The translations under genes and the position numbers were made by a program. DNA of 64,000 nucleotides from Marchantia polymorpha subsp. ruderalis. Its lineage: Eukaryota; Streptophyta; Marchantiopsida; Marchantiales; Marchantiaceae. The notes under the pieces were generated by a model. That model worked only from the letters and a program-made list of their open reading frames with translations, was not told where the DNA came from and ran no database searches. Positions 9,330-43,850 of this stretch are shown piece after piece; within the stretch, counting starts at the first letter, position 1; each line of letters starts with the position of its first letter. Where the stretch lies: assembly GCA_037833965.1 (NCBI GenBank), contig AP031352.1, forward strand, positions 7,234,501 through 7,298,500, read 5' to 3'.

Positions 9330-12300
9330 CCGGCAGCAAAACTTCTGCGTCTTCGGATTCCCAATCCGAGAAGCTCCGGAGAAACTGTATTCTTTCAGAC
9401 GCTCCGAACCTTCCATCTTCATGAGACGCATGTTCCTAAGTCTTCCACGACGGCGAAATGGGATCTTACTTCGTGCATCAGTTTGAACTCCCAGTCATAT
9501 CATTTCCTCCTGATGAACTATAGATTGATTAGAATCACGATTTCCTTCGGGACCCGTAATTTCTTATCTAGTTGAACCTTTTGACCCTTTCCATGTCGTT
9601 CCAGTCCAGCGCCTAGAAAACTTGTACTTGGTCTTCTATCAAACCTCCATCCTCCTGCATCCTGTGTACGGGTCCTTGGAGGAGCGGAGTTCATCTAATG
9701 AACAGGTAAGATGAGATTTTTTGTAATTAGCTCTACTGTTAGCTCTAGTGACCCTCTCCCGCATCATGCTAACTACTCCAAGTAGCAGTTCAGTAGTGAA
9801 GATCTAGTATATGATCTCCATACATGGTCTTGTGAGCTGTGATTTTCACACACAGAAATCTGGGAAAGGAACTGTCGAAATATGGAAATCGATCTATTTC
9901 CATGTTACCTCCCCGATGCTTGCGAGGACATTTGTTAGGGACATTTGTTGCGAGGACATTTGCTTCACTGATGTAATGCGCTTCACTGATGTAATGATGA
10001 TGAGATTCACCTGCACTATTGTCACCATGAGCTAGTAGGTTTCGAACCTTCTTGCTGATATGTTTGAAGAAATACATTCATATAATGATGTGTTTAGGCT
10101 CAAAATGATTCCAAACAAACCATTGATGAACAATAGACACCATGTGGTTTTAGTGCTGACGCATTACTCTCACTGTTGTCAATGCTGGGGCTCTTGTTAA
10201 ACTGACTGGAGGCAGATGAGTAAATTGTGCATGCAAATCGGAATGAAATTTTGCTGCGCACGGTTTATTACAGCTCATCAATTCGTATTCAGAGTTAGAA
10301 ACAAGAGAGTTTCAGCAGCATGGGGACCAGATAGAATAGCTTGTACAATTAGAAGACTAGATGGCTCACAATCCAACATTCCATAATTGTGAACAATACA
10401 TCCTACCAGTGACCGATCTGGGTGAGGAGAGACCATGTCAATATGTGAGTACTGCAATCATAGTGATCTATCTTCGCTATCTGCAGCTTCACAGCGACCT
10501 GTCTTCGCTACCCTCTACGTTTCTTCTGCTTTATTCTTCATCTGATATCAGAGAAATCGATTTGGATCATCATCATTCCTCAGAATTTAGTAGGTTGAGG
10601 GTCCAGGACGATCATTCCGGTGTCAAGGGATTTCTGTATGTGATAGGTGAAACCTTTTGAACAGATTAAGAGAAAGTTACATTACCATACTTGCTCTTTT
10701 GAACTGAACTCGATAGACAAGATGCTTTTGCTTCTTGAGTCAACTTCACCATGGTTTGATATGACACTTATGGTAAATCAGACTACCCAAAGTACTATGT
10801 TCCTGTTCATGTCAAAGTGTCACAAACTCACATTTGGAGAAACTACGATCTGCAGAAAGCATAACTGCGTCACGGTATAGGCACAGCATTAAAGGGAGAA
10901 TATTCCAACGATTGATTCTGAGTACTTTCTCCGTTCTTGCTCCACGTAATATCACCCTTTTTTTTTCTTCTTCATTTTTTTAATGTTTTCTCACTTTTAG
11001 CGTAACTTCCTCTCCGGTGCCTCCATTCCAAACTGGAAACTAAGGTTTGAGTCATATAGTTCACAGTTTGACTTATCTAAACTGTTAAAGCTTCTTATCT
11101 GCAATTTTGTAACAATAACCATGTACAAAATACCTCGTATATTTATTACTTTAAAGTTGGAGAGCCAAGCGATTCAGCACTGCTAGAGGTACTTAAGCGC
11201 ATCCACAATTCTTTTTTCACTAATTTTAAACAATCGAGATTTGACGAGGATTGTCAAGTGATAGTTACCAAAACTCAAGTCTACAGGTTGTGACATCTCA
11301 CAATTAGAGATAATAAAAATATAAGAATAGAGAGAGTTATTTAAAGCTTTTCATCTGTATAATGATGTGATTGCGTAATATATCCATTTACAAGACATGG
11401 TTTACGAATGCCACTTCACAACTCAAATTTCTCTTCCACGCATAAATTCCTAGAAACTCATGCGCGCCTGTCTAGATCATTACAAATATAGCCCATTGCA
11501 ATCCAGGTTGAGGCGTTTCCTTGAGATACCTTCTTCAGCTCCCGATCGCTTCTTGATAACACTCATCTCACAAGCAGCTTATCGCAATCCAGGTTGACGT
11601 AATTTGTTGATACACCCTCTTCACCTCCCGGTTCAACAATAAACCACTTCTAAAAGAAAAAACGTTTTTTCTTTTAGAAAAAAGAATAAAGTAGACTTTC
11701 CTTCTCCTATAAACACTACTTCAAAAGGTTACTCCGGTTCTTCCTATCGATACTTACCATTGACTTTGATCGTGATTGTGGTTGTTTGACTTTCCAGACG
11801 GACGCACCGTCTACTCTCTCCAATGGCTTCAACTCACCAAACTATTTGTTCCCCAATTGACAAATTCTCGATCCATAATCCTATACATCTCGCGAGCTCC
11901 ACGATAGTCTCCATGATCTCCCTTTTTACTTCCAACATTTGCAATTCCGCGTCATCACACCAGTTCACTTGAACATAATCACAAAAAGATTGTTAGAACT
12001 ATACTTGGTATAGAGGTTTTATGATAGTGAACAGTTTGATACAAAACAACTTCTTCTCTATCGACATAAAACATACTTTGGCTTCTTTCACTCAACAGCG
12101 CTCTTCGAGGGATGTATTTTTCTTAACTTCTACTTGTCCATTTGTCTTTTTTGTACCTTCAACTTAGCATTCCCTTTCTTCAATTCACGGAGCTCGTTAG
12201 GCATATCCTTCGCACGTGTAATACTTGTTACATGGTCCAAACCATCTTCACAAAATGTACTTCCATAAGTGCTTCTCACCTAAAAATATAAGATTTTCCG

Positions 12301-13590
12301 ACTTATTGTAATCATTAAAAGATTAGGTACAGAACAGCCTAATGTACGTTGTTATTTGCTCCCCTTGTTCCTGAGTTTCATCTTCGGCATTGAATATTAT
12401 AATCTTGGTCTAAGGGCCATAATGATTCTTTTTTATCTTTTATGGTAGATCTTAAAATTGGTATTAATGTTGATTATCACTCCGGTTTTATAAAGCTCAT
12501 TATGAATGTAAATTGACAATATATTTTCAAACTCATCTAAAGTTAAACATTTTTTTACATTTTATCTACGCTCACCAATATATGTCACTTTTCATGAACA
12601 TTAAATGTAGTTTTGAAAATCACATAGCATTATAGATTTGTATCAATGAATACTCTTACTTACTTCCATGAAGTTTAGAATTAGTAAATATCACTCATCC
12701 AATAAGGAAAAACACTTTGTCACATATCATTGGCTTATTTGAACTTGCTAGTAGTTCATGCATCCCTATGCTGAGTTGGTTACGTCCATCAGAGGTTGTA
12801 AACTTGAAAAGAAGTAATTAAATACATTATTTCTTCATGGAAAATAGTCAACTCCGTACAAACAATTATGTTAATTAGAACATTGTGTTAAATAATCCTT
12901 TGTTTTAGAGCTGGAAATTATTATTTTTTCCATGTATTTTAGTTAAGCTGATTATGGCAATTTTGGTTACATATTTTTCATCATCATAAACTTCTGAAGA
13001 AAAAGCAAAAATGTTACAAAAATGTTACAATGAGTCTATTTAGACTATGCATTATAGTTTTGGACAAATGTGTAACAATACCACTCAAAACATTAACCCA
13101 AAAGTCAAAGATTTCAAGGTTCATCTTAAAGTATTAAGCATGTAGAAGAAAACAAAACAAGTTATAACAAAAATTCCAAGTTTTGTTTCTCTAGACATAT
13201 ATGATTCAAAGAAAGTAAAAATTCATCTAGTTGATGTGATGAATTTGTCAAATCAAAAAATTCACACAAAAATTTTAAAACATCTATGATTTTTTTTAAA
13301 AAAAATTATTAAAATGATACGTCAATTTAAGAATAAAAAATAGACAAGGTCACACTCTCTTTCAATCCCTACACTTCTTATTTTGTCTAGATGAAAAAAT
13401 TATTTGATCTTTTTTTGCTAATGAAAATAAAAAATAACTGATTGATAGATGTTTTTTGTGATTAAATTTCTTCTAAACACAAGCAAGATAAATTATTATA
13501 TGTTGGCAATGTAGGATTTTGACTATCTACAATTAGTGATTTTGATTTTGATTTGATTTCCAATTTTTGCTCATTTGAATTCAAAGAACA
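9330..13590. other. Gene-free, AT-rich stretch
   Basis: I see no gene. There are small local duplications near 9935-10000 ('gcgaggacatttg' and 'cttcactgatgtaatg' each twice). Two diverged copies of a motif beginning 'gcaatccaggttga' occur near 11500-11630, and there is one perfect palindrome at 11648-11679. The sequence from 11.0 to 13.6 kb is very AT-rich. Confidence 0.6.
11648..11679. repeat. Perfect 32-bp palindrome
   Basis: The sequence reads ttctaaaagaaaaaac followed directly by its exact reverse complement. There is no loop beyond the central CG, so it would extrude as a perfect hairpin. Confidence 0.9.
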
Positions 13591-13596
13591 AAACTA

Positions 13597-15100
13597 ATGA
13601 AATACAAATCTCTACAGCTCAGACTCTCCAACATTAAGTAAAACAAGTTAATATCAATAATTCATCATCATGATGATATAACAATCTGCGATAGCTATCC
13701 GAGCATGTTAGTTGCACTTACGTGACGTCTCATATTTGCAGTTCTGTCACTTATCAATTCAAGATTTGACCTCATTGCACTATGTGTTCAATGTGTGCCA
13801 CGTGTCGATGCCTTGTGCTTTATTGTGTCAAATTTTTGGATAGTTTTGAATTTGAAAACGCATATTCATCAAGTCATCCGGCTCCAAAACATCAAATTCA
13901 ACGAACAAATCTAATGATATACAAATCTCTACATCTTAGTCTCTCCAACGTAAATTCAGGCAAGTTAATGTCAATGATACATCATCCTCATGATATAATA
14001 GAGTGTGTTGACTATCCGAGGGTGTCATTCATGTCTTTGTGACGTCTTGCACATGCGGCCCTAAAAAGTGTCAACTCAAAATTTAATCAAACTACTCATA
14101 TAAAAATTTTACAACTAAGGCTTCCCAACGTAAAATCATGCAAGTTAATATCATTGAAACATCATCATCATGATATAACAGCTTACGTGATATGCTCGAG
14201 AGTGCTACATGCGCCTACATGGCGTCTCGCATGTGCAGTTATGCCCAAGTGTAAACTTGAAATTTGACCTCACAACACTGTGGGTCCAATGCGTGTCAAG
14301 TGTTAATCACTTGTTGGTGTCTTGAGCATTGTTGTGTCAAACTTCACGATCGTGTTGAATTCAAAGGCATCTATTTAGCAAGTTCTTAGACTCCAAAACG
14401 TTGACTTCAACAAACAAAACTACTCATATACAAATCTTTGCAGCTCATTCTCTCCAACATAAAGTTAGACAAGTTTATACTGATGATACATCATTATCAT
14501 GATATAATTACGTGCATGGCTTGCCCGAGCATGCTAATCTTGTCTAGGTGACGTCTTGCAGATTCAATTCTGTCATGTGTCAATTTGAGATTTGATCAAA
14601 CCAATGATATACAAATCTCTGTAGCTCAAGCTCTGCAACATAAAGTCAAGAAAGTTAATATCAATGATACATCATCATCATGATATAACAGCTTGTGTGA
14701 TCTAGCCAAGTGTGCTAGCCGTGCCAACGTGATGTTTCACACGTGCAGTTTTGCCACGTGTTAACTTGAGATTTGACTAAACTACTAATATACAAAACTC
14801 TGCAGCTCAGTCTCTCTAACATAAAATCATGCAAGTTAATATTGATGATACATCATCATCATGATATAAATGACTGCTTGGACTATCCGAGCGTATTATC
14901 CGCGTCTACGTGATGTCTCGCACATGCGGTTCTGCCACATGTCAACTCAAGATTTGAACTCACTGCACCGTGCATCTAATGAGTGCCACTCATTAGATGC
15001 ACGGTGCAGTGAATCTAATGAGTGCCACATGTTGATGTCTTGAGTGTTTTTGTGTCAAAATTCCAGATAGTGTTGAATTAGAAAGCGTCTATTCTTCAAA
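13597..15100 (+). repeat. Satellite-like tandem array of about 180 and 325 bp units
   Basis: Six diverged units share a core running from 'atacaaatct.t.cagctca' through 'caagttaatat' and 'catcatcatgatataa' to 'acgtgacgtct' and 'tcaa.atttga'. The 'tcatcatgatata' landmark lies near 13663, 13981, 14161, 14490, 14671 and 14850. Spacings are about 320, 180, 330, 181 and 179 bp. Long units carry an extra block of about 145 bp (with 'gtgccacgtgt', 'tgtgtcaaa.tt' and 'gttgaat'). The mixture of long and short units indicates unequal exchange of two unit types. No coding capacity is evident. Confidence 0.85.
14961..15011. repeat. Perfect 24-bp-arm inverted repeat inside satellite
   Basis: Arms 14961-14984 and 14988-15011 are exact reverse complements around a 3-nt centre. 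A further partial copy of the arm ('aatctaatgagtgcca') follows at once, so the array unit was locally copied in inverted and then direct form. Confidence 0.95.
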
Positions 15101-15888: not shown

Positions 15889-15896
15889 CTTATAGC

Positions 15897-17600: not shown

Positions 17601-17789
17601 GTCAGGAGGCCGGCTAAGTATGGCGGTCGCTAACTAAGAGTGGCGGAGCAAGGGAAGGGAAGGGAGGCAGTGCCATGTACCGAGCGAGAGGCAGGCGGGC
17701 CTAAAGCAAACACGGCACAACGACAAGAGCGACCGACAGGCATCCATCCATCTGCATCCATCCGTCCATCCATCGGCTGCTGCTGCTCG

Positions 17790-18198
17790 GGGAACGCGAG
17801 CTCTGCCCGCCCGGCCCGATGCCAGGCGGTCCTGGCCCGCAGCCCGACCTCCCGCTTCGACCAGGGAGGGCCGCCGCGCTCCAGCTCGCCCTGAACCCTG
17901 AATACTTAGTTGCGTCGCGAGAGGATTGTCGAAAGTTTCAATCTTCCACAGAGTAAAATTCGCAACAACATGCCGAAGAAGAAGAGGGGAGACCCAAACA
18001 TGCTCACACTTTTGTGAAAGGAGGAGAAAATAAATACAGAGTACAAGTTCCCTGCGGGGAAGAGAGGCCTCGAGGGAGGAGCACGATGGTCGAGCGGGAG
18101 CGGGAGCGGGAGGGCCCTCCCTGGTCGAAGCGGGAGGTCGGGCTGCGGGCCAGGCGGTCCCTGGCATCGGGCCCGGGCGGGCAGAGCTCGCGTCCCCG
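17790..18198. repeat. GC-rich inverted repeat, about 83-86 bp arms
   Basis: The arm 17790-17872 is matched by the reverse complement of 18113-18198. The match has a few indels: 'ccaggcggtcctggcccgca' on one side, and a form with the ggt/cc order altered on the other. The spacer is 240 nt. Both arms are much more GC-rich than the surroundings. A 258-codon minus-strand frame spans the repeat, but its composition simply reflects the GC-rich arms. Confidence 0.85.
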
Positions 18199-18625
18199 CG
18201 AAAGTGGGGAGCCCTGATGAGGGCTGCTGCTGAAGGAGCTGGAAGGCTCATATGTGCGTTAGACACTGCTGTGCGAGTGCATGGGGACTTGTTTGTCACT
18301 CTCAAGCGTGTTAGGAGCTTTTGCATTAAAACCTTACATTTTGAACTGGAGTTGCTTGCATCAATAAATTCTTCAAGAATTGACTCATACAATTTTGTCA
18401 TGATGAACATTGTGTCATTGCAGACGTGTAGACGAAATCTCCTTGATCACAATCTCTTGCAATGAATAGTTGGTCTCAAAAGACCACTTTAGGGATTCGA
18501 CGTAAGTTATTTAACAGGCTCGAAGCATAAGCTTGAATTTACAAAGGCGGATTCTCCTCAAGAAGAACCAAAGAGCTAACTGGACGATCTACTCTTGCAT
18601 TTCCATATCTACAAATTCTCAAAAA

Positions 18626-20107
18626 CTACTTCTGAGAAATAAATTCGTCCTCGTTCGACCCGTGAGGATGCTTGATCACAACCTCGACCGCCCCAGGGCT
18701 CACAAATGAGGGCTGGAATGCCCAGACTCCATTTGAAGCAGAAGGCCCCACACGGAGTCTGGGCATTCCAGCCCTCATTCGTGAACCCTGTGAAGTAGAA
18801 GGCCCCAGGCTCACATTTCTGTCGTGAACAATCTTCCAGTTGCACAATAAGGTCCAAGAGTCATCGACCTCGGCGTAGCGCACCATCGGGGAAGTCAAAG
18901 GGAAGTCGTCTCGAGAACGGGCGGCGGGATTGGGATCCCTTGACAAGTCAAACGATTGCGCTTCCAGAAGAAAAAAAACTTCGTCCCTGGCTCCTACGCA
19001 CCAGCTGAGTTTGAACTCCTGCGTACCTTCGATCTGCAAGGGGAGGATCACGTCGAGCACCCGATTCATAGGCATCGCCTTCTCTTGCAGGTACAACCGC
19101 CGGCCCTCAGTCGAGTCCAAATTCGAAGGTCCCGTATCGAGAATCTCAAAGTAACAAAAAGGCTTGTTCGAAAGTCTGCGTCCTCGTTTTCCAACCACGA
19201 TGATCTCGCCGTTATGCTCCATACATCTCACATAAGTCGTCCTCTCGTCTAACATATTCAGCGCAGTCCTTTGGTTAGACATCCTGCAAAACACATAGCT
19301 CCAAGTGTCGAGACTCGCATCGTATATGTACACCAAGTCCAGAGTTGGCCCTTCCGTTTGACTCACCAACCAGTAGAATTTTCCCTCCTTCGTCAGACAT
19401 TGAGTCGTGTATCCGCTGTAACGCATATAAGGCTCTGCAAATCCATCGAGCCTCCTGATAGATGAGGGTAATTTACAACCTAGCCGCCATGAGAGTAATC
19501 TCGAGTCGTAGAGGTAAGTTTCGCCAGAACGAGGATCTAAAAACACGAACCTATAAAACCCTGTCTCGAGATTCGCATCGATTCCGCACAACAGATTGCC
19601 TGAGTTAGGGATTGTGAGACAGAAACGTGAACCAGACTCAAATGGCGTCAGCAATTTAAGGTGTTGTCGCGTTAAAGGGTTGTAGATAACGAACGACGTC
19701 TTCAGATCCCTGAGGTTCTTGGCGAGAAAGCAAAGCAGACCTCCACCAGACGCCACCAGCTGGACCTGATGATATTTCAACGACAGAACATGATGTAGAT
19801 CGCATTGTAGCCACGAATTAGTGCTGGAATTGTACATGGTGAGAGCTCCATCGTCCAGATACAGCGGAACCAGCTTCCCTGGCTTGTGGCAAAACGAGTG
19901 TGAAAATTCCCACGTCATTAACAGAGCGTTCCAAGCTTTGCATACACAACGAAATCTCATCACTTCCTTCAAAGGCAGCCTGCCCAGCACATTGTGGAGA
20001 AGATCATCCGGCAATGGGCACCCCATGGACCTGACGTCTGTTCTGCTTGTTGCAAGCTTCATACAAAATCGCACTCGACTATGCCTCGAGAATAACGAGA
20101 AATGCAA
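18626..20107 (-). CDS. F-box protein, kelch/propeller-like C-terminus
   Basis: This is an intronless frame of 493 residues. An F-box lies at about residues 31-65 (PLPDDLLHNVLGRLP, then RFRCVCKAWNALL), preceded by a basic leader of about 30 residues; the ATG at about residue 29 is an alternative start. Residues of about 80-430 have the pattern of plant F-box substrate domains: short beta-rich repeats with FVIYNPLTRQ, a YLYDS/W step and YIYDASLDTWSYV. F-box proteins link Skp1/Cullin1 ubiquitin ligases to target proteins through the C-terminal domain; the target here cannot be read. The C-terminal 45 or so residues (RMRAGMPRLRVGPSASNGVWAF and after) are encoded by a fold-back duplication (18695-18789), so this tail may be acquired. 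The frame is otherwise clean, making it one of the two best candidates for a functional gene here. Confidence 0.85.
   Translation of the reverse strand: MHFSLFSRHSRVRFCMKLATSRTDVRSMGCPLPDDLLHNVLGRLPLKEVMRFRCVCKAWNALLMTWEFSHSFCHKPGKLVPLYLDDGALTMYNSSTNSWLQCDLHHVLSLKYHQVQLVASGGGLLCFLAKNLRDLKTSFVIYNPLTRQHLKLLTPFESGSRFCLTIPNSGNLLCGIDANLETGFYRFVFLDPRSGETYLYDSRLLSWRLGCKLPSSIRRLDGFAEPYMRYSGYTTQCLTKEGKFYWLVSQTEGPTLDLVYIYDASLDTWSYVFCRMSNQRTALNMLDERTTYVRCMEHNGEIIVVGKRGRRLSNKPFCYFEILDTGPSNLDSTEGRRLYLQEKAMPMNRVLDVILPLQIEGTQEFKLSWCVGARDEVFFLLEAQSFDLSRDPNPAARSRDDFPLTSPMVRYAEVDDSWTLLCNWKIVHDRNVSLGPSTSQGSRMRAGMPRLRVGPSASNGVWAFQPSFVSPGAVEVVIKHPHGSNEDEFISQK
18695..18789. repeat. Fold-back duplication inside the F-box coding region
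   Basis: Arms 18695-18730 and 18754-18789 are reverse complements at 34 of 36 positions, with a 23-nt loop. Both arms and the loop are in the open frame near the C-terminus of the F-box protein. The insertion preserved the frame. Confidence 0.95.
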
Positions 20108-20123
20108 AGGATCTTCGTAATAC

Positions 20124-20269
20124 GTGAACAGGCACTACTGGGCAGTCACTCAATTCAAATTGGGTGAACAGATCGAGTCCACAAAGCTTGCAACATGTGA
20201 ACAGGCACTACTGGGCAGTCACTCAATTCAAATTGGGTGAACAGATCGAGCCCACAAAGCTTGCAACAT
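20124..20269 (+). repeat. Two-copy tandem repeat, 73 bp unit, upstream of F-box gene
   Basis: Copies 20124-20196 and 20197-20269 differ at one base (gagtcc versus gagccc). They lie about 20-160 bp upstream of the minus-strand F-box start, so the promoter or 5' leader of that gene is duplicated. Confidence 0.95.
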
Positions 20270-21240
20270 GAGAACAGATTCACGAGGATAAAGTCGGTCT
20301 TCTGCTCTGGAAAGTAAGTTTCGGTGAACTTATGCCCCTGCTCCCAGAGTCAATGGCTCCTCTCACATGGACGTGGACACGAGTCACGGTGTCACCGACA
20401 CCTCGGGTTAAGACAGGTGTCTGGCATGGAGATGAACAAGAGGAAGCATGGAGGATCGGGTTACAGTCTGCGCTGGATAAGGGCAAGTCATATGTTTGAC
20501 AGATTTCACTTTCACTTGTAGACGTATATCGGTCATACCAGTTTTCCAAACTTGCACATGAGTTGATGTTTGATGTTTTGGACAATGACATGAAATAGTT
20601 GAGGTACCTCATTAGCAGCATTTCACCATGACACTAATGGTATCCTGTACTGTTTAGAGATCAATCCACTATACATAAAGACAGCGAATGTTCTCACGTT
20701 TGAACTAGGACACAAAATCCATTTAATTTTATTCGATATACATGTATTTATATTTAAGATATTCGTGTGCAGAAAATTGATATATTAATAGCCATATTAT
20801 CCGAATTCTCATTTTTCAAATTTTTGAAACCTAGCATTTGTATTGCTTTACATAAATTATTAACTTGTCTGTCAAAGTAAGTATTAAATCATACTGGATT
20901 AATCGTACAAATCAATAATATTCAAAACACTCATTTTATCTATAATTGGTTTGAGTTATACATGCCGTATAATTCTATAGAAATAAATAAATAACACATA
21001 TTTAAATTCCACACGGCAAGTATATAGTTCAGTTTTACATTATATATCTTTTTTTTCTTTCAATATTTTCTTTTAATTCAATTTAGAAGAAAACAAAGAA
21101 ACTTAATTCAAATTTTAAAATCATGTCATAAAGGTATACTATCGGCTATTTGATATAGTGGAGTTTTATCTAAATAGAGGAAACCAAAATTTAAATCAAC
21201 GATCTATCACGATTTATGGGGAAAAAGCTCCATGGTATCT
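20270..21240. other. No recognisable gene
   Basis: AT-rich intergenic DNA; nothing supported. Confidence 0.55.
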
Positions 21241-22447: not shown

Positions 22448-22449
22448 TC

Positions 22450-25550: not shown

Positions 25551-25663
25551 TTTACGATGGGTTTCGACTTGAGGCCACGATTTCTGATCTTCATTCTTGT
25601 CATCTGTCTTACAGCGTCTAGCATCATCAATGTCGCCCAGGGTCAATCCACAGCAGACCAAGA

Positions 25664-25692
25664 CCTCACTCCTCACAAGCGTAGGAGTGAGG
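25664..25692. repeat. 10-bp-arm hairpin at the PR-1 insertion site
   Basis: CCTCACTCCT (25664-25673) is followed by its exact complement AGGAGTGAGG (25683-25692) around 9 nt, then a second 'aggagtgag'-like copy. It lies at the point where the PR-1 frame breaks. Confidence 0.85.
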
Positions 25693-25702
25693 AGTGAGGT
25701 AC

Positions 25703-26310
25703 TGTCAAAACCCGCGAGGTTCATCACATCGACTGCATGCCCGACCGTGGAAAACTCAGCTAAGCAAGCTAAGCTGAATCAAGGCATACCTAGCCTGACC
25801 TGGGACTCCACGCTAGAATCGTATGCTACTGACTGGGCCGCCACCAGAACAGCTGCTGGTGACGACTGCGCTCTCATACACTCTGGAGGACCTTACGGAG
25901 AGAACATTTTCTGGTCCACTGGACCGAGCCCCCCAGCGGATGCTGTGCAGTCCTGGGTCAGCGAGGAGGCATATTACGACTACGCATCAAATTCGTGCTC
26001 GGCCCCAGAGGGCGAGTCATGTGGTCATTACACGCAGGTCCCATGCAAATTCTTCTCGTCCTTTTCTCTCCTAGTGTGCGCGACGTTGTGTTTCCATGGC
26101 TTTCCGCCGTAGTTCGATTTTCAGAGATTTCTAGATCTTGCGAACTAACCACGAGCCCAGGACCTGTATCAGGATAAAGCTGTTCCCACAGATGTAAAAG
26201 ATGAAGGGCTTCCCGCATACTCTGGAAACTCATGAATGACACAACAAACTCGAAGTCGATTTCTGCGGTCGGGCATGCAGTCGATGTGATGAGCCTCGCG
26301 GGTTTTGACA
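25703..26310. repeat. 45-bp inverted repeat spanning PR-1 exon and intron
   Basis: 25703-25747 and 26266-26310 are reverse complements at 44 of 45 positions. The left arm is in the first part of the exon and the right arm is within the intron. The same short peptide can be read from either arm on opposite strands. Confidence 0.95.
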
Positions 26311-26434
26311 CGGGTCGCACTCTTTGCAACAGGTCGTGTGGAGGGACACAGCGGCGCTGGGATGCGGGTCGGCCACTTGTCCGTCTGGTGCCTTGTTCGT
26401 CGTTTGCAGCTACGACCCCGCGGAAACGTTGACG

Positions 26435-29106: not shown

Positions 29107-29815
29107 GTGTGCCCATTTGCATGTATTTGCTTGCTCTTGCTTTTGACTGCTCTGCTGCGCGCAGCAGCCCTGCGCAGACTAGCTAGAAAAAGAAGAAAGA
29201 ACGAGAGCGATGTGCCCAAGCAAAACTTTTGGTTAGGGAGGGAAAAGAGAGGAGGGGAAAGGTACAGAGAGGGAGTTGATGTAGTGGGTGAGTTGCAAGA
29301 AAGAGACGATAGTGGACCTTGCCTAGGGTTGACGAAGAGAAGGGAGCCAGGGAGGGAAGGAAGTCAGAAAGGAAGTAGTTAATAGCACAGTCGCAAAGCG
29401 AGCAGATGAACACGTATACTGTACAGCTGGAGTTGGAGCCTGCAGCAGCCGAGTGAGAGAAAAAGGCAGAAGAAAGGGGAGAAATGGGTAGAGTGGGAGC
29501 GAGAGTGTGGGAAGCATCGACAGGCAGGGGGCAGGAGAAGGAGGCGGGAAGGGGTAAGGGAAAGCAACGCAGGTGGTCAGGTCAGGTCAAGAATCGAAGG
29601 AAGGAACGTTAAATCTGGCAGGCAGGCGGGGCCAGCCCCGTCAGTCCGTCGACCAGCCCCAGCCGGATCCGAGTCCGGGTCTAGCCTCCCTCGTTTGCCT
29701 GATTGCGCTTGTTGTTGTGGCAGCACTCGGAGATAAAATCGTGCTAAGGAGCAGCGGACGAGAGAGAGAAGGCGAGGGGAGCAAAATACGCATTGGTGAA
29801 ATGGAGTCATCATCA
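29107..29815. other. Purine-rich strand segment, probably non-coding
   Basis: The plus strand is heavily biased to G and A ('agggaggg', 'gaaggaggcggg'). Several overlapping frames exist on both strands, all with low-complexity composition. It might be a leader or promoter region but shows no domain. Confidence 0.4.
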
Positions 29816-29980
29816 GACTTTTATCATCATGGCTGTCACTGACACTAGCTCTAATTTTATCATCATGGCTGTCACTTGCACTATCTCTAATTGCTTTTAT
29901 TGCTACTACTGTGATCTCTAATTGCTTTTATTGCTACTACTGTGAGCCAAGGCATCGAGATACCGACGTAGAAGGTTTTC
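29816..29980 (+). pseudogene. Lipase exon 1 fragment with internal duplications
   Basis: The text 'tttatcatcatggctgtcac' (exon 1 codons for LSSW) occurs twice, as does 'tctctaattgcttttattgc'. It then reaches 'gtgagccaaggcatcgagat', matching exon 1 of the main copy ('gtgagccaaggcgtggagat'). The ATG region is missing and the frame is not maintained. Confidence 0.65.
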
Positions 29981-30066
29981 TCGCAGAAGGTTTTTGACTC
30001 CTGCAAATACATGCCATTACATGCATGTATTTGCAGCCCTCGAAAACGTTCTGCGAAAAAACCTTC
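29971..30066. repeat. 44-bp-arm fold-back at the end of the lipase fragment
   Basis: Arms 29971-30014 and 30023-30066 are reverse complements with about six mismatches around an 8-nt loop. The fold-back begins where homology to lipase exon 1 ends. Confidence 0.85.
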
Positions 30067-30424
30067 TCAATCCTATCACAAGAGGATACTATTGCGAAGA
30101 AAATGAGGTTAGTGCTCTCAATCGCTACTTCCTACTCTGTCGGCCCTGCTCATAAGTCTTTGTAATCAGAATAGTGGCAAAAGAAAACATGAAACTTCGC
30201 TTTTGTTTGGCATGGTTTAACCATCCTCCGAATACACCTTCTAGTGTACACAAATTACACATACACCTTCCAAGTTCAGCTTTCTTCTGGTTGCAGAATC
30301 TGAATAACGGCATAGCTTCTTACACGATGCCAAATCCCAAGCGAAAGATGAATATTATTTGTGCCACTCATATGATTTTGAATACTGATGATTAGAGCCG
30401 ACAGTAGTGATTGAGACCACTGAT

Positions 30425-30546
30425 CTCATGCTTCTCGCACTGATATACTCTTGGGATAACATCACAGCAGCCAGAGTAGCAAACGAAACAATTAGAACTA
30501 GTGCTAGTGACAGCCATGATCATAAAGGACGATTGCTCGACCTCAT
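30425..30546 (-). pseudogene. Lipase exon 1 copy, with stop and deletion
   Basis: ATG 30546 starts MRSSNRPL, then a TGA occurs where the main copy has TCA. Beyond it the hydrophobic signal-peptide-like stretch continues (SWLSLALVLIVSFATLAAV). About 20 codons of the main copy are deleted before 'tatatcagtgcgagaagcat', which corresponds to GYICKE. The splice donor position is mutated (ATCAGT instead of GTTAGT). The upstream flank is R repeat, as in the main gene. Confidence 0.7.
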
Positions 30547-30651
30547 GGTTCTCAGTTGCTGAGCATGCACGAATGTCATACGCTGGATGTTGCTGTTTTC
30601 CACTCTGACTAATTTCAGAAGAAATGCTGTATCTTCGAAAAGATACACCAT

Positions 30652-30869
30652 TCATTCAGGCTGGTGATGAATCCGTATCTTCGAAATGATGCTGATTCAT
30701 CACCAGCATGCCTCTTTATAGCTTTCACCCGAGGCTTCACACCAAAATCTCCTTCATGTTTCATTCAGGCTGGTGATGAATCAGTATATTCGAAAAGATG
30801 CTGATTTATCACCAGCATGCCTCTTTAGGGATTTCACCCGAGGCTTCACACCAAAATCTCCTTCATGTC
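30652..30869. repeat. Two-copy tandem repeat, 109 bp, each unit with a hairpin
   Basis: Units 30652-30760 and 30761-30869 both contain 'ggctggtgatgaatc' and its complement 'gatt.atcaccagc', then 'cacccgaggcttcacacc'. Each unit thus carries a 14-bp-stem hairpin at the same place. Confidence 0.9.
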
Positions 30870-31002
30870 TCAAACGCGAAATACATTGAATTTGAAATTC
30901 TTTCTTAGACAGAATTCTAACCGCTCGTCTCAACACTACTTTTAAATGGTCGAGTCCATCGGATTTGAATTCTCGCTCCAGGAATGATACGTTGAGGCAA
31001 CT

Positions 31003-31074
31003 ACCAGTTAAACAGATATCTGGTTAACTGGTGCGTACATATCACGTACGAACAGATATCTGTTCGTACGTGAT
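31003..31074. repeat. Two adjacent palindromes with the same core
   Basis: 31041-31074 is a perfect 34-bp palindrome centred on AACAGATATCTGTT. 31003-31032 is a near-perfect 30-bp palindrome centred on ACAGATATCTG. Their outer arms differ (ACCAGTT versus ATCACGTACG), so the shared core has been re-used. Confidence 0.95.
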
Positions 31075-31739
31075 ACGGTTCACTGGAAGTATTAGTCGTG
31101 GTTATACATGTCAAACGTTTTGAACTGATGCCTTATGGAATTAAATGGTTGTACTTCCTAACAGAAGTCATCTGAAAATGCATTCGGCTGCTGAGTATCT
31201 CATGGGTCCATAATCGGTAGGTGGACAAGGTCCGTGTCCGGATTTAGCCAGAGTATACATTGTCATGCACTCCTTGTTCTGCAGACGAGTCGAAGTCAAC
31301 GGATAAATAACACATATTCGAATTATGCAACTCACATTTTTCACCGTTCTTGCCATGCCGTTGCACAACACATCTGTCGTGACATGCTTAAGTACGGGAT
31401 CGAAATATTTACTCGAGACATTGCCATGACATGCTTCTGCTGGGTCACAAACTCCCAGATCGAGCTACCGGGATCTTGATTGCAACAACGACAAGTTGCA
31501 AGCTATTGAAAGTCCTTTCGAACACTTAATCGTTCCAAATCTGATGTTCTATTTCTCTTTCTGTCGCTATGACTCGAATTGTCACCTCTACAAACGCACA
31601 CACAGACCTGTCAACGCGCATCATAATATCTGAATCTTCTGACTCGATTTGAAACTTGACACCACGGAATTGGAGCTTACAACCTCCTGAAACTCCGTGC
31701 ATAAGCTTTTTCAATGGCACTCAAATTTTAATGTATTGC

Positions 31740-34700: not shown

Positions 34701-37700
34701 ATCTATCCTAGCTTCCCGATCTTGCCATTAATCTAATAACTTCACAGAAGGATTTGTCATCAAAAATTTTTATACAAACTGTATTTAGTTTAATTCAAAG
34801 GATAAACATCTGATGTCTTGATTTCATTTCAATTCATTGAATCAAACCATGTTCATACACAGTCGATGTTCATACTCGAATTCTTATTTTCCCTTTGAAA
34901 AAAATTTTAAATGCGATTCAATCTTCCATTTTGTGCCTTGTTCATGGTGATAGGCTCTGGTTTTCATGGGACGTGCCAAAAAAGCGGTTACATAAAAGGA
35001 AATGGCTTGGGACCTAGACGTCAAGTTTTGCCTGGTCAAAGAAATAAGTGATGTGGAAATAATCGCATGAAATTTGCGTGCAGAGTCGCAGGATTCACTC
35101 AATGCCGGATAATTGTTTACATGTGTCATCTTATGCAGAAAATATTTTTATCAGTTTATTTGAGATAATGTGTTGTGATACTCGCTGCCTCAGCCAAACA
35201 TGGAGGCCATCGTGTCTTATATCATCCGAGGCAAATCAGCAGAACCTCTGCAAGCTGCTTCTCTGCCTGAGATGAAGATTAACAATTTCCACAGTTTATG
35301 CAATGGATTATGCCTCAATAAGGGGAACAGTTCAGTGCCAACATGAGCAGCAGTTGTATCTACCCACGGCGGGTGTTAATTGGTCCCTCGAGGGTCACGT
35401 ATAATTGATTTTTAATGGAGCTAGCAATCCTGCTCGGCTGGATTCTGCATAGACATGCAGTGCGTGAGAAGTAGCATTAATGTCTTGATGTGCGGCAAAA
35501 GACTGGGAAAACTTGGAACATGATAAAATCTGCAAAGAAGAAGCGTACAGACTGCGTCTTCTTTTTATCCATACGAGGAGTAACTCGAGATCTGACTGCT
35601 CAGAGAGAAATCCACTTAGAGCAACAACGCTTGGCCGAGACCATTGTCATCAGGTTGGCAGGAACCGACCAGATTTTGACGAAAAAAATGTTAGCAGATG
35701 CTAGCCTATGTTTTCGAGAATGATTCAGATATATGAGCTGCTTTGGTCCAAGATATTTGTCATGTACAGCTGCAAATGAGATAAAGTCCGCTACAAAGGA
35801 TGAAGTCCGCTCTTAGAATAAATTGATGATTTTCCATGAGCTTTTCAAATGTTGAATCAACCTGCAGGATCGTCGACGATTTGGTCTGAGGCGACACGGA
35901 AAGAGACAGCAAGCCTGTCTTTTTCCGTTTCGCCTTCGACAAAATTTTCGACCGTTTCAAGCTGATGCGATTTATATCTCGTGTGCATCGCCCTTCTCGA
36001 TACATCTCTCATTCATGCCTCAAATTATAAACCGAGAAGTTCCAGCCAGATCTACATAGAGTTCTACTTCAGAGCTGAGTTGATTTCTAGATTAATGCCT
36101 TGCACGTTGTGTATTCCTACTTTGACACTTAGTCCAAACCCCTGAAGACAGAAATTGGGTAAATAGATAACTGATCATATTAGCCTTAATCGATTGCTGC
36201 AGTGACGGAAGACCTTCGGAAATATATTCACAACTGTTGGCTGGAGGTGGAAAGTTTGATTTGTTACTCTAATCGAAGGTCTTCCCTCACTGCAGGTAGG
36301 AAATGTCTAAAATGGAAAGTGCTTTGACTGTTATGCGGGCATTTATCATATTTAATCTGATCATCACATATCTAGGTTAATTCGATGATTGACATTTTCG
36401 AGAACCTCAACTGAAGAATGCTTTGAAATTTCATTCTACTATCATAATTTTGATAGTGGTGAAATCTTCTCTTGAATGTATGAAACATGGAATGGTCAGT
36501 ATGTTGTTGCTGAATTTCACTTCTTATCATCTGATTCCAATTACACAAAGTGTTAGACAAGAAGAAAAATGAGTTTTTTTTCTGTCTGACCTCTCGCGAC
36601 ACCTGTGACAAAATATGCAAGCTGAATCTGGTACACCGGTCATGTAAAAGGTCACGGGAAGGAGCCTGCTCCTTCGTGGAGATTGAATCTGTCAACTAGA
36701 ACGAAATTCATTCGAGTGCTGCCATTCGAATGTAGCCGATTCTTACTGTCGTCGACGATTGTCTGGCTGAAAGACTTCAACTTATAACAATGTTGACGTA
36801 TCCCTATATAAATCTTGGTAATCACACCAGTCACCCAAATTGAGTACCGTATCCACGTGTTGCCGAGACTCTGTCTCCGCTGGTTACCATGAAGAAGATG
36901 GTTTGTATGTTGCCGACTGCAAGGTATTGTGGCTTGGGAAAGGTCGTCTCCTAAGAACCCGCCTGAGCTCACCTATTTAGGTCGGATACTCATCTTAGGA
37001 ATGAATATCACGATACGGTAGACAATTCAAGAGCTCTAGCGATGAATTGTTCTAGAATCAAAACGTATACATCTAGTTTAGACATTTGTTGGGAGTTTTC
37101 ATCTGATTGTAAGAAAAAATTTCATATGAATAGGACTGTTGTAAGACTGGGAGAGCAGAGCAAGAGTACCTAGTGATAGTAAGAAATAATCATTACCTCA
37201 TAAGCATCGACACTCCTGGAAAACGAGATCACTGAACAAGATGCCCTGAACAGTCTTTAAATTGGAGTAAGATGTCAACTAGGTCGTTTTTCATATAGGC
37301 TTCTCACATAAGCTCTTAGGTATATTACTGACTGCAATCTATGCAGTATATCGAGTTTAGCAGTGTAAGATTAGATTATGGGCAGGGACCCTTAGTCACT
37401 ATTATATTCTGGTAGATTTTGCCAAGTTCAGCAGTTGAAGAATAAGTTGGACATCTGCTCATGTCGTCTTGATTAACTACATATCGAAGCGGAAAAGGAT
37501 TCATGTGTATTAGGCTTCGTAAAAGAAGCACGTCCAAACCATTTTAAATATTCGAAGATCAATAGCATCAACTCACGCAAAGAGCATGAATGACCTACTG
37601 CGGTTTTAAGGAAGGCTCACTTTGGTCGTGGACAAGAATACTGATGAGCAAATTACTTTCTAATCGCTATTCATATTGCAGGATTCTGATGATGAACGAT

Positions 37701-37790: not shown

Positions 37791-37794
37791 CCAT

Positions 37795-38345: not shown

Positions 38346-38402
38346 AGAACTCGGGACGGAGGGAGGAGGAGGAGATTTTGCTGGACGTGGTGGAGCTGGA
38401 CG

Positions 38403-38735: not shown

Positions 38736-38829
38736 CTGACTTGACGTGAAATCGAGTATCTTCAATCTGTCCACATTGTCTCCATCAAATGGAGATATTG
38801 TGGTACGCTTCTTACAATCTTGTAGCAAG

Positions 38830-39640
38830 TCTTATAGTCCTCGTTACTGCAAGTACATACCCGCTAGCTCGAGCGGGGAATTGCAGCCGAGTAGAAGAAT
38901 GTCATGGCAATGTCTCGAGTAGATATATCAATCCGATATTTAAGCATTGTCACGAAACATCTGTTTTTCAACGGCATGGCGAGAACGGTGAGAAACGTAA
39001 GTTGCGTACTTCGAATATGGGGTACTTATCTTTTGACTTGGATTTGTCTGCAGCACAAGGAGTGCCTGCCAATGTATACTCTGGCTGAATTCTCACATGG
39101 ACCTCATCCGCTTACCGATTTTACATCCAGAAGATACCAGCACCTGAATTCACTCTGGAAGAACAAACACCCATTTCAAGTTTTCCTTAGTTCAAAATAT
39201 TTGAAATGTGATTTTTGTTTCAGAACGATGAATAATTCCAATGCAGCCGTACTTTGGACCAATTCATCTCAAACTCGCCATGGAGGATGAAGACATTTGT
39301 TTACGGCTAGTAGCTGTCAAACCGCAACGTATACTTCTTGGGCCAGATCTGGACTCGATGAAAACCGTTCGAAGAGGATATCTGACGATTCTTCTCGAGG
39401 ACAAATTTCAAATTCAGTGATTTTGCGGTTGACAGAAGGAGACGTTGGTCTGAAGCCTCGGGTGATAGCCATAAAGAGGCAAGGTAGTAATCATTCAGTA
39501 TCTTTTCAAAGGTACAGCATACATTTGCAAGTTCCATCGTTGTCTAAAGCTCAGTTTTATCAGCAAACCTTTATTTTCGCCTTTCTGCAAATCAGCTGTG
39601 TGTCGAACTCAGGAGCAAACCTATATCGTCTCCTGCCTTT
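38830..39640 (+). repeat. Dispersed R repeat upstream of the lipase gene
   Basis: 38830-39330 is the inverted counterpart of 43020-43520. Both carry 'gcatggcgagaacggtgag', 'gtatactctggctgaattc', 'gaacaaacacccatttcaag' and 'acatttgtttacggctag'. It ends about 80 bp before lipase exon 1, so it may include or replace the lipase promoter. The two frames within it are short and not conserved between copies. Confidence 0.75.
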
Positions 39641-39715
39641 TTTAAATCAATTGTGTGTCAAAATCAGCAACATCAAGTGTACGACAGTTCGTGCATCGTC
39701 GGCCAACTGAGAACA

Positions 39716-42700
39716 ATGGGGTCGAGCAATCGGCCCTTATCATCATGGCCGTCACTAGCTACTTTAATTGCTACTCTGGCTGTTGTGAGCCAAGGCGTGG
39801 AGATGCCGAAGATGGATGCGCATGCGTCGTTGACCTTCTGTGAGATTCATGTACTTCCTCGAGGATATATTTGCAAAGAGCAGGAGGTTAGTGGTCTCAT
39901 TTACTACAAGAGTCTCTGTCCGCTTTACTCATCAGTATTCTGCACCAGAATAGTGGCAAATTAACTGCAACTTTCGCTTTTGTTTTGGCATGTTTTAAGA
40001 AGCCATGACTTCATTCAGAATGTGCAATCAGAAGATAGCTGAACGTGGTTGGGTTATGTGTCATTTGTGTACACTGGCAGGTATATTCGGAGGATGGTTA
40101 CATGCTTAGTCTGCATCGGGTTATACTTCGGGGAAGCCTGGAAAAGTCTGTGTGGGAATGGCTAGAGCTGGAGCTCCGACATAATCACAAACACCAGGGG
40201 CCCTTCCCTTGGTTCAAGAAAGCACGCCCAGCTCCTGAGGCTGTACCCTCGGACACAAGTCCTAGCAGCAGGTCAGAAATTCCACCATTTCCAAGTCCTC
40301 CTCCTTCCTCCTTCTCGCCTCCAGGTGAAGGCACATATAGAGGATCATCTCCGCCGCCGTCCTCCTACTCTCCACCTGGTGGCTATGGAGGTCCGAGCCT
40401 TCCGTCCTCCTCCTCGCCTCCAAGAGAAGGAGCATATGGAGTACCATCTCCGCCATCGTTTTCCTCCTCTCCACCTGGTGGATATGGAACTCCTACTCCT
40501 TCTGCGTTCTCCCCATCAGGCGCAAGCACATATGGAGGATCGAACTCAGCTCCATCGTCCTACTCTCCCCCGGCAGCCGCTGGTTATGGGGCACCCAGTT
40601 CCACCGGTTCTAGGAACTCACCACCAAGTGCCGGTACAATAGGAGCAAGATCTCCATCTCCCACGTCCATCAACCCTCCTCCTGCCGCTGGCGGATATGG
40701 AGCACCGAGTCCTGCTAGTACGAAGCCATACTGAGGAGGATCCACGACGCCAACTTCCTACTCTTCTCCCAGTCCTCCAGAATCGAACTCGCCACCAGGT
40801 ACGGGGAATTACGGAGAGGGATCGTCAGCACCATCAACATCTGCTCTCTCCCCACCACCTGGTGGATCCGGATACGGAGGCTCACCTCCATCGTCAACGA
40901 GCTCCCCACCGACCGGGTCAGGACGATCTACTTCCAGTTCCAGTGCTGAATGTCCACGTGGCTTGTCCTCGCCGAACATTGCAAGGAGGGGACTTACTAG
41001 CAGCGATGGCCGAGAGCAACCTCGGACTCGAACCAGAACTCGACCAGAACCCGGTTCTGCTCATGCACCACGAGCTTCTCAACGGGGACACCTGGTTCAC
41101 GCACGTGGCCACGGAGAACGACACTCTCCTCCCGCTCAGGCTCGTGGACCAGGGCTTCGATGTTTGGATCGGTCACGAGCGGGCGACGCTCTGGAGCATC
41201 GGAAGCTAACTCCCAACAACTCCCAACGATGCTGTACGTGCAACACGATCCTCTCGGTCTGTTGATTTTCGCTTGGAAATTGACGGTTCGAAGCATTTGT
41301 GTGGCGTTTTTGCAAGTAATTTCTGGCTCTTGCTAATGACTGACTGGAAGGATACGACCATGCAGGCGTACTGGAACTGGACTTGGGATCAGCATGTAGA
41401 GCACGACGTTCCGAAGCTGCTGACATACATCAGCGACGAGACTGGCTCCAGAGTGCATTACGTCGGTGTCTCTCTGGTGCGTAAATGTATTCATTACGTG
41501 ATTTCCTCCCTCCCTACATGTAAGATCAACATTCGGGCTGCGAGCTCAAGCTTATTTGCCGTGACTGGTTGGATGTATGCAGAGCGCTGCAGTCGGAGCA
41601 GCCGCAGCCACGAACGCGGGCGTCGCCACTCTCATGAAAACTCTGACTCTGATAGCTCCCGCCGTCTATCGGGGAAAGACTACTTCAGAGTTACTGCAAG
41701 CCTGGGATCCTATTCTATTTCCCTCGGTGAGGCTTCCGACCGCCTTCTCCATTTCTGTTTCATAACGTCAGACTTGATAGTGCCGACAAGTGGGGATTGC
41801 AATCAAGAATCGACAATGACAGCCGCTGTATTGTGATTTCAGGCTTTTGGCACGAGCGACGACGAATGGCACGACCGCAGGCTCGGTGCGTTCAACTTTC
41901 CGAGGTGAGTATGGCATCAGCAGGCATGCTTGACTTGACGTGAAATCGACTATCTTCAATCTATCCACATCAGCAACCATGAAATGAGTTTGGTGAAGTT
42001 AGGAAAGATCGGAAGCTAATACTGATCCGTCGTGCCCCAGGGAGTTTCATCTAGATGCCATTCCATTGACCAGCCCCGCTATTCATCTGCGGTTCGCCAT
42101 CTCGGGTGACGCAACATCCCTTCTTCATTTGGTTATTCGCAGTGATTTAGATAAATGGGCCTCGTGGGATGATTCGGTTTATCGATACCCTTCTGTCGAT
42201 TGATATGTTTGTAGAATCGGATTTGAATCTGAACCGGTTTCCTTTGCTTTGTCTGCATGTACATAATAAGCCCCGAGTGCTGTCTGGGTCCGAGTGTGCT
42301 CTCGCTCGCCAAAAGGTGGGATGGAGTGACGTCGTACAAGAATCTCCAGCACCTCTATCAGGGTAAACTGGATGATCGATCTTCACTAGATTAGAAGGAA
42401 GGAAGGCAGGCAGGGCTAGATCGAGATTTCATATGGATTTGATACTTTCGGAGCGAAGTCTAGACTGACTTCTCACATCAGCGCGTGAATTGGTTGCTTG
42501 CAGGAATCTCCACGAATACATTTCAGCACTTCGACTACGGGTCCGCAGCCTTCAATGCCCTGGCATACGAGGGCAAAACCGACCCTCCGACTTACGAGCT
42601 GAAAGATATGCCCGGCGACCTGCCGATGTTAGTGGTGTACGGAGGGCAGGATTTATACTCGCCTCCCGAAGGTGTGCTCGAATTTATGAGCTTGACACAG

Positions 42701-42762
42701 TCTATGCCCTAGTCAGTGTACCTGCCTCACTACGCACATTTCGACCTATCACTAGCCTGCAC
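39716..42762 (+). pseudogene. Triacylglycerol lipase (AB-hydrolase lipase) with Pro-rich linker, decayed
   Basis: Exon 1 (39716-39886) encodes a signal-peptide-like start and CEIHVLPRGYICKEQE. It splices in phase 0 to exon 2 at 40081 (VYSEDGYMLSLHRV), together the N-terminal lipase motif. Exon 2 continues into a Ser/Pro/Gly/Tyr repeat linker (SPPGGYG type) of about 270 residues, then in another frame NPVLLMHHELLNGDTWF and FDVWIGHERATLWS. Exon 3 (41366-41476) has YWNWTWD and the nucleophile region HYVGVSL. Exon 4 is 41583-41726, exon 5 is 41843-41904, and a possible exon starts at 42041. The last exon (about 42468-42762) has FDYG, GGQD (catalytic Asp) and LPHYAHFDL (catalytic His). Breaks: TGA at 40732, a frameshift near 40950, TAA at 41207, TAG at 42710 (the paralogue has CAG), and a missing C-terminus at an R-repeat junction. 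The GxSxG second Gly is not preserved. Enzymes of this family hydrolyse acyl esters; this copy should be inactive. Confidence 0.85.
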
Positions 42763-42779
42763 CGAGCGGACATTATCAA

Positions 42780-43850
42780 TAGAACTTGCAAATGTAAGCT
42801 GTATCTTCGAAAACATACTGATTGATCTAAATCAGTATGTTTTCGAAGATACAGCTTGAACCTTTAGAGCTGTCACCCGAGGCTTCAGAGCAACGTCTCC
42901 TTCTGTCAACCGCAAAATCAACTGCTTTTGAAATTTTTCCTTAACCAGAATCGTTAGATATCCTCTCAACCGTTTTCATGAAGTCCAGATCTGGTGCAAG
43001 AAGTATACCTTGCCGTTTGACCGCTACTAGCCGTAAACAAATGTCTCTTCATCCTCCATGGCGAGCTTGAGATGGATCGGTCCAAAATACGCCTGCATTG
43101 GAATTACTAATCGTTCTAAAACATGGATAGCATTTCAAATATTTTGAACCAAGGAAATCTTGAAGTGGGTGTTTGTTCCTTCAGAGTGAATTCAGCTGCT
43201 GGAATCTCCTGGATCTAAACTCGGTTTGCGGACCGAGAACCGTGTGTGAATTCAGCCAGAGTATACATTAGAAGGCACTCCATGTCATGGAGACAAATCC
43301 AAGTCAAAGGATAAATAACGCATATTCGAATTACGCAAGTTATGTTACTCACCGTTCTCGCCATGCCGTTGCACAACAGATGTGTCGTGACAATGCTTAA
43401 ATAATGGATTGACATATTGACTCGAGACATTGCCATGACATTCTTCTGCTCGGCTACAAATTCCCAGTTCGAGCTAACGGATATATACTTGCAATAACGA
43501 CAAGTTGCAAGTAGTGCCCGTCGCAAGAAATGAGTTTTCCTCGTAACAGTTATTTGTTGCAAATCCGATGTCCCATTTCTCTCTCTACCGGTTTGACTCG
43601 GATGGTCACCTTGCAAATGCGAGCACAAACCTGTCAACACGGATCACAATATCTGAATATTTAATTCGATTTGAAACTCGCCAATTTGGAATTGGAGTTT
43701 ACAACCTAATGGAATTCTGTGCATGAGATTTCTCTGGAACTGAAGTTTGTATTTGTCTGGATCCTTGCAAAGGAGTCATAAGTTAAAGCTGCGCGAAGAC
43801 TGTAACCTGGGAAGACCGTGTGGACTTCAATGCAAGTTGCTGGCTATATG
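42780..43850 (-). repeat. Dispersed R repeat, inverted copy at 43 kb
   Basis: It is inverted relative to 37.8-38.3 and 38.8-39.6 kb and spans the content of both. Its exon-proximal end abuts the truncated 3' end of the lipase last exon, forming an inversion-type junction near 42775. Confidence 0.8.
42796..42857. repeat. Perfect 28-bp-arm hairpin at the lipase/R junction
   Basis: Arms 42796-42823 and 42830-42857 are exact reverse complements with a 6-nt loop. The arm contains 'gtatcttcgaaaacatactg'; one-arm versions of this text occur in the other R copies (30.6, 39.5, 49.1 kb). Confidence 0.95.

Follow-up and report, generated by a model that had tools for sequence, protein, structure and literature searches.

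Most of the inverted repeats crowded into one part of the window (the whole stretch of 64,000 nucleotides of Marchantia DNA that was analysed) are best read as scars of short-range self-templated DNA synthesis, a process already described, either as template switching or as fold-back templated insertion; we put the probability of this reading at about 0.86. The observations comprise the inserts, the reverse-complement sources close to them and the relatives in which they are missing, and from these we infer the polymerase steps: a 3′ end would pair with complementary sequence close by, on either strand, roughly 20 to 60 bases would then be copied backwards, and synthesis would return to the original template or join the other end of a break, and the product would be an inverted copy, in many cases accompanied by a short direct repeat or a minor loss of sequence.

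Inverted repeats of the window and their density

The preliminary description had listed ten fold-back repeats in 11648..42857, and each of them is present in its place (arm matches follow as fractions; a strand is named only where one applies).

11648..11679: perfect 32-bp palindrome, A/T-rich; arms 16/16, loop 0
14960..15027: satellite fold-back, perfect 26-bp, where a satellite monomer ends; arms 26/26, loop 1
17787..18224: transposon-like insert, terminal inverted repeats (TIRs) of ~100 bp, GGCTGCTGCTG on both sides; inverted repeat 17788-18198 with 93 matches, 5 mismatches and 5 gap columns
18694..18790: fold-back in an F-box exon, derived 57-bp insert at ~18732-18788; arms 35/37
25663: inverted repeat; arms 14/14
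25703/26310: inverted repeat; arms 48/51
29968..30067: fold-back with 45-bp arms, derived insert at ~29968-30019; inverted repeat 29970, arms 39/45
31003..31075: two fold-backs side by side, each centred on AGATATCT; inverted repeats 31003 (14/15) and 31040 (18/18)
36197..36295: fold-back with 22-bp arms; 21/22
42796..42857: perfect 28-bp fold-back, derived right arm at ~42828-42859; arms 28/28

Density was scanned with our own seed-and-extend procedure (score of at least 18, loop of at most 600), which eight of the ten listed places pass, 11648 and 25664 falling below it. The flagged 31.2 kb, a region chosen post hoc after inspection and whose repeats are not all independent (25664 and 25703 belong to one insert), holds ten matches, and the remaining 32.8 kb of the window holds one. 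Five dinucleotide shuffles of the window gave no match in any of them, on which a chance origin was rejected, and random own-genome sequence, sampled as 17 stretches of 10 kb from contigs C2, C4, C5 and C8 only, gave five in 170 kb. With the transposable element and its two matches left out, the whole window has nine, an excess over the random sample (p = 0.0042) and over that sample joined with three flanking stretches (five in 200 kb; p = 0.0017); at a score of at least 25 the latter comparison becomes seven versus one (p = 0.0003), and short-loop repeats alone show a weaker excess (six versus four, p = 0.017).

The unusual density first claimed for this region is therefore real when set against shuffles and random own-genome sequence, and only suggestive against stretches bearing related gene copies, seven of which gave four matches in 70 kb (p = 0.10). 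All four lie in L047-L050, where two of the matches interleave, and these cluster stretches exceed random sequence plus flanks (p = 0.048). Once the flanks L041-L043, which carry family copies and have no match, are grouped with L047-L050, no such excess over random sequence is left (p = 0.25), which weakens the proposal that gene families as such drive the density. The same scan found no such repeat in the family-bearing stretches L041-L043, L049 and L050, so the process is not evenly active across these families. Per 10 kb, tandem arrays number 1.60 in the flagged part, against 0.86 and 1.42 in the remaining two parts of the window and 0.76 for random sequence, a weak difference as evidence of any general surplus of local tandem duplication.

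One listed repeat belongs to another class. Judged by its copies and ends, 17787-18224 is a multi-copy TIR element and not a fold-back scar: there are many copies in the genome (40 of 97 candidates scored), an empty-site relative (L045) lies on C8, and a further relative (L046) has TIRs of ~120 bp and a flanking repeat of 9-10 bp, the window copy itself having a degenerate left end and a flanking repeat of low complexity. Mutator-like TIR elements have long TIRs and a target duplication of 8-11 bp. We presume that 17787-18224 and L046, with TIRs of 100-120 bp and flanking repeats of 9-11 bp, resemble them. That the other arms are likewise remnants of TIR transposons (MITEs) in unrelated places is very improbable, because the inserts at 14989, 18732, 25679, 29968 and 42828 each copy, in inverted form, the gene, intron or satellite sequence next to them, and the sequence around 36197 and 11648 matched the window alone, the genome search for relatives of both returning self matches only. 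One transposon family behind every arm was rejected, only 17787-18224 behaving so, in line with the earlier statement that the repeats are not one such family.

Ancestral states from paralogues

At six flagged sites (satellite 14960; F-box exon 18694; PR-1 exon 25703 together with 25664; 29970; 31003-31075; 42796), which account for seven listed repeats out of ten, the derived arm is absent from same-genome relatives. The preliminary description had called for a search for copies missing one arm among the alleles of other accessions, and such copies were found at all six sites in paralogues within one genome instead; the recurrent local inverted copying that it proposed is borne out at these sites and falls away at 17790-18198, a TIR element. 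With insert ends placed by eye on the alignments, the six inserts were tested against 700 bases on either side, and five matched ancestral sequence close by in reverse complement, at scores reached by none of 200 shuffles; the score of the sixth, 31003, whose palindromes sit within the insert, was reached by 4 of 200. Arm divergence at the polarised sites runs from 0 to 13%, and the events were therefore probably not simultaneous.

In the satellite, the added stretch (14989-15027 by eye, with a net gain of ~28 bases in the alignment) contains a 24-base exact reverse-complement match, its score equalled by 0 of 200 shuffles, and after the fold-back ATCTAATGAGTGCCA is copied again (forward, inverted, forward). 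The relatives L039 and L040 continue without the fold-back, as does L038, which is diverged there. The second site lies in a gene.

18626..20134, minus strand: F-box gene, open frame of 502 aa; PF00646, E 2.7e-10

Its insert adds 19 codons with the frame kept and repeats TGAAGYAGAAGGCCCC; the 19 residues are absent from four of four relatives examined (L018, L071, L072, L073), the three distant ones aligning loosely at the insert. Direct re-copies accompany the fold-backs at 14960 and 18694, and at both a single return to the original template is clear by eye.

Identical arms, such as those at 14960, 31040, 42796 and 11648, could also come from chimeric or fold-back reads, as artefacts of assembly or sequencing, but we give this explanation hardly any credence: arms differ by 5-16% at 18694, 25703, 29970, 31003, 36197, 30657 and 30766, which is unexpected from read artefacts, the F-box insert keeps its reading frame, and the 42796 fold-back recurs in a separate duplicate of 99% identity (L068). 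A further site lies in a PR-1 gene.

25557..26112, plus strand: PR-1 (CAP domain) gene copy, first exon and start of intron; PF00188, E 2.1e-9
25679..25768, plus strand: PR-1 insert, a 90-bp patchwork versus 11 bp in relatives
26260..26310, plus strand: PR-1 intron arm, the ancestral template, which paralogues have

The insert, which breaks the reading frame, consists of two fold-back copies of upstream sequence that create the 25663-25700 repeat and of intron 26260-26310 copied in inverted form; it may also include a direct copy of AGCTAAGC, whose 8 bases are no longer than chance expectation. The anchors are separated by 11 bases in five of five aligned paralogues, and the insert is missing in all 39 other copies among the matches listed (40 of 65 candidates scored), many of which are near-identical array units, so that the 39 are not 39 independent witnesses. 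A junction loss combined with filler from nearby templates was found at PR-1 only, from at least two nearby sources, and more than one template switch is required there and at 31003. The satellite, F-box and 42796 events fit a four-point template switch. The PR-1 insert, with its several templates and the loss of 11 bp, fits double-strand break repair and has more the look of break-repair filler than that of a simple switch at a fork. The replication forks originally suggested are one possible setting for the events described here, and break repair is another.

Short stems and older inverted copies

Three further features lie beside or beyond the listed repeats.

29800..30530: inverted duplication, centre ~30218, arms 29800-30220 (left) and 30218-30530 (right); the 29856/30475 repeat lies inside
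30657..30819: hairpin pair, two copies through a 109-bp tandem duplication
46821..47246: older inverted copy, 78% identity to 47720-48141, outside the flagged range

Paralogue matches start near 30218, the left part matching paralogues in reflection, and on the ends of these matches 29800-30530 is a probable old, diverged inverted duplication. The insert at 29968-30019 is absent from L031, L033, L036 and L037, and the fold-backs at 31003-31075 from L029, L033, L034 and L035; AGATATCT is single in relatives, and 31003-31075 represents added sequence with a loss of ~30 bp. The 425-bp arm near 47 kb behaves like the flagged sites, its relative L044 having the spacer and one arm only. In hairpin 30657/30766 an inverted copy of the right arm stands in place of the left arm, in a structure older than the tandem duplication.

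These ages bear on whether the whole cluster arose in one catastrophic event, as its confinement to 31 kb, with none in 30 kb of flanks, might suggest. This is scarcely credible given arm divergence of 0 to 16%, and ~22% for the 47-kb arm, and a 30657/30766 hairpin that predates its tandem duplication; a single burst was ruled out on the varying divergence.

The derived arm at 42796 is missing in six of six aligned paralogues. When the stem was compared across 36 rows, 30 matched the core, 25 of them with a stem of 5-8 bp and five with arms of 14-28 bp, the five long-armed rows amounting to three different products. In three copies, then, a short stem common to the paralogues was turned into a long fold-back, each time with a different product, from which the independence of the three events is judged. 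Pre-existing short stems probably seed the switch, most clearly at 42796. More tentatively, the multi-copy gene clusters of this chromosome may be a natural fold-back hotspot in which a shared stem was converted independently at least three times (42796, 30657/30766 and L030), so that dozens of paralogues might serve as a ready comparative assay of where and how often switching starts.

The new hairpins, as predicted folds, could feed small-RNA pathways, and six of them tested as single strands fold far more strongly than shuffles (z -6 to -14); inverted duplication has moreover been described as a model of how plant microRNA genes originate (as put forward in PMC3237417). It is nonetheless improbable that they are functional hairpins under selection as small-RNA sources. 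An Rfam scan of the window gave no match at gathering score (a tRNA scan also found none), relatives lack the arms and the hairpins are therefore not conserved among paralogues, and the PR-1 arm being an intron copy, its small RNAs would correspond to introns and not to mature mRNAs.

Comparison with known systems

Template switching is described as a process studied in depth in microbes (PMC8794818), and it has been mapped in great apes (PMC7954356); in the paper library searched, combining plant or Marchantia with template switching gave no match, and the papers listed by a further search mostly concerned T-DNA integration and DNA repair. At this plant locus paralogues give before-and-after states, including three products at one short stem, and seeding and rate of the process could thereby be measured by comparison. 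It also displays single-step consequences for genes, with one PR-1 copy broken and one F-box protein longer by 19 residues in frame.

The gain at 42796 was ~22 bases, and the replacement at 30657 spanned about one whole arm. Quasipalindrome corrections usually involve few bases, and these changes are larger. The likeness to quasipalindrome-associated mutation, as characterised in PMC3820800 and PMC8604942, lies in the extension or perfection of an imperfect existing stem, and some of the yeast events described in PMC8604942 arose more than once.

The repeats resemble short-range template switch mutations under the four-point model of Loytynoja and Goldman, as presented in PMC7954356 and PMC8794818, both in the derived reverse-complement copy adjoining its source, sometimes with direct repeats, and in near-perfect inverted repeats made perfect. 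Unlike the cases presented there, ours come from plant paralogues at one clustered locus and from alignments instead of pair-HMM scores. The fold-back inverted insertions described at yeast double-strand breaks (PMC11724301) share the inverted copy of break-adjacent sequence primed by short homology, PR-1 being the best fit, and stem-loop extension by polymerase theta, in the account of PMC11292364, likewise yields an inverted copy primed by short homology.

Density of inverted repeats in the window

The preliminary description listed ten inverted repeats between 11648 and 42857 of the window, and all are present where it placed them. An independent seed-and-extend scan (loops of up to 600 bases) found 8 of the 10 places again at a score of at least 18, the repeats at 11648 and 25664 being short and scoring below 18; it returned 10 matches in this range, including an extra repeat at 29856/30475 and two matches inside 17790–18198, and it added a repeat of 84 points at 47082–47884. 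The density is 3.2 per 10 kb in the range, against 0.3 in the remaining window, 0.29 in 17 random stretches of the same genome and zero in five dinucleotide shuffles, such that the excess that had been claimed holds against both random and shuffled sequence; three flanking 10-kb stretches likewise yielded no repeat at this score. Two of the matches in the range are part of a transposon. Once the transposon matches are removed, 9 repeats remain in the window. The random stretches, 170 kb in all, have 5 (p 0.0042), and still 5 when the flanks bring the total to 200 kb (p 0.0017); at a score of at least 25, the window has 7 and random plus flanks 1 (p 0.0003). Short-loop repeats by themselves give 6 and 4 (p 0.017). 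All of these tests are post hoc, with the random stretches drawn from four contigs only.

As for gene families as a source of this density, 4 repeats occur across four stretches that surround related gene copies (three in L047, two of which interleave at one place; one in L048; none in L049 or L050), which is higher than random plus flanks (p 0.048) and no different from the window (p 0.40). The three flanks likewise carry family copies, yet hold no such repeat, and the seven family-bearing stretches pooled (4 in 70 kb) have no significant excess over random sequence (p 0.25); the window is higher than this pool only at p 0.10. The two interleaved repeats, with arms of 73 and 64 bp, lie in the related gene cluster at L047:9266–9601, a possible further fold-back site.

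Derived arms in two coding exons

The F-box frame at 18626–20134 (502 residues) contains a fold-back with 57 added bases: GAAGCAGAAGGCCCC a second time, and the 37 bases upstream in inverted form. The closest relative (L018) is without the addition, as are three remoter copies (L071–L073) at the protein level, where the alignment is loose; the polarity therefore rests on more than one relative. The added bases preserve the reading frame, making the protein 19 residues longer. A 10-residue tandem duplication is found in L072 near the place of this gain, and a 73-bp tandem duplication (97% identical) lies at 20124–20277, at the 5′ end of the frame.

The exon starting at 25557 is part of a CAP-domain (PR-1) gene with at least 39 other copies among the best 40 of 65 candidates scored, 35 of the 39 being on contig C7. 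All 39 listed copies align to 25678 (one to 25656) and resume at 25767 without the intervening sequence; between these anchors, the five aligned copies each have 11 bases and the window has 90. Read by eye, the insert first copies the upstream GTACCTCACTCC twice as a fold-back, producing the small repeat at 25664; the next 51 bases or so match intron 26260–26310 in reverse complement. The insert ends with AGCTAAGC, found again directly after the insert, an 8-base match whose length is within chance. The insert keeps paralogue letters that have since been altered in the window's own intron and upstream arms, and therefore the copying came first and the divergence of the arms later. With a net 79 bases gained, the reading frame is shifted, and the insert itself contains a stop. 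The PR-1 stretch at 25500–26600 has copies in an array at C7:7.53–7.93 Mb, in repeated units about 21.85 kb apart, that also holds relatives of 29700–31200.

A recurrent stem and the remaining sites

At 42796, about 22 bases are absent from all six aligned paralogues, and 17 places spanning the site, paralogues included, are about 20 bases shorter (among the best 40 of 74 candidates). The fold-back is repeated in a separate 99% duplicate, L068, which argues against assembly error. The multi-copy family of this segment also includes 30657–30819 and 39139–39537 in the window. Of 36 rows chosen for comparison from the relatives found, 30 match the core; the stem measures 5 to 8 bp in 25 of the 30. 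The five exceptions are:

42796 and its duplicate L068: arms of 28 bp
30657 and 30766: a single event that preceded a tandem duplication, with a copy of the right arm standing in place of the left
L030 (a relative elsewhere in the genome): a 14-bp arm with one mismatch, from an 18-base insert

One homologous stem has given three different products, as would be expected if a short stem seeds the switch. Separately, 42500–43200 and 46950–48050 have 99% identical reverse-orientation copies at C3:9.112 and C3:9.107 Mb, and comparison of these two pieces suggests a recent segmental duplication.

The satellite at 14960 runs forward, inverted and forward again; its relatives L039 and L040 continue without the addition, which is absent from L038 too, although that relative is divergent there. 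About 52–56 bases at 29970 are missing from four relatives. Two adjacent fold-backs at 31003–31075, each centred on AGATATCT, are also missing from four relatives, in which AGATATCT is single copy, and about 30 bases beside them have been lost in the window. For five of six inserts, none of 200 shuffles matched as well; the 31003 insert (4 of 200) is not clear of shuffles because its palindromes sit within the insert. Larger structures occur too: 46821–47246 is an inverted copy of 47720–48141 (78% identity), of which the relative L044 has only the spacer and one arm, and 29800–30530 appears to be an even older palindrome around 30218, where relatives' matches start and to the left of which they match in reflection. 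Searches for relatives of 36197 and 11648 gave self matches only. At 40039–41836, a proline-rich frame is followed by sequence that may resemble an acid lipase.

The local inverted copying put forward in the preliminary description is thus mostly borne out by relatives without the derived arm, the part that failed being 17787–18224. There, a fold-back scar is ruled out by many copies, by terminal inverted repeats (TIRs) and by a relative on C8 (L045) with an empty site joining both flanks; in another relative, L046, the TIRs measure about 120 bp and the flanking repeat 9–10 bp. This is a non-autonomous TIR element, perhaps Mutator-like.

Likeness to known copying processes

What the fold-back sites have in common is a derived segment that is a backward copy of sequence within about 600 bases. 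Such segments would arise by short-range backward copying from a nearby template, with a return at 14960 and 18694 leaving direct repeats. The arms differ by 0 to 13% at polarised sites, those where relatives without the derived arm give the direction of change, and by 16% at 30766, and these varying differences point to repeated events over time. Computed folding of single strands gives z scores between −6 and −14, and the hairpins may have small-RNA effects. Most worth following are the cluster and the stem used three times.

The copying process itself is already known, and a fork and a break as the starting point of each event are not separable by sequence alone. Among published accounts, the return and direct repeats at 14960 and 18694 match the four-point template switch (PMC7954356); the PR-1 insert, which draws on several sources and comes with a loss of bases, is similar to yeast fold-back insertion at breaks (PMC11724301); and the lengthening of a short stem seen at 42796 is similar to quasipalindrome mutation (PMC8604942).
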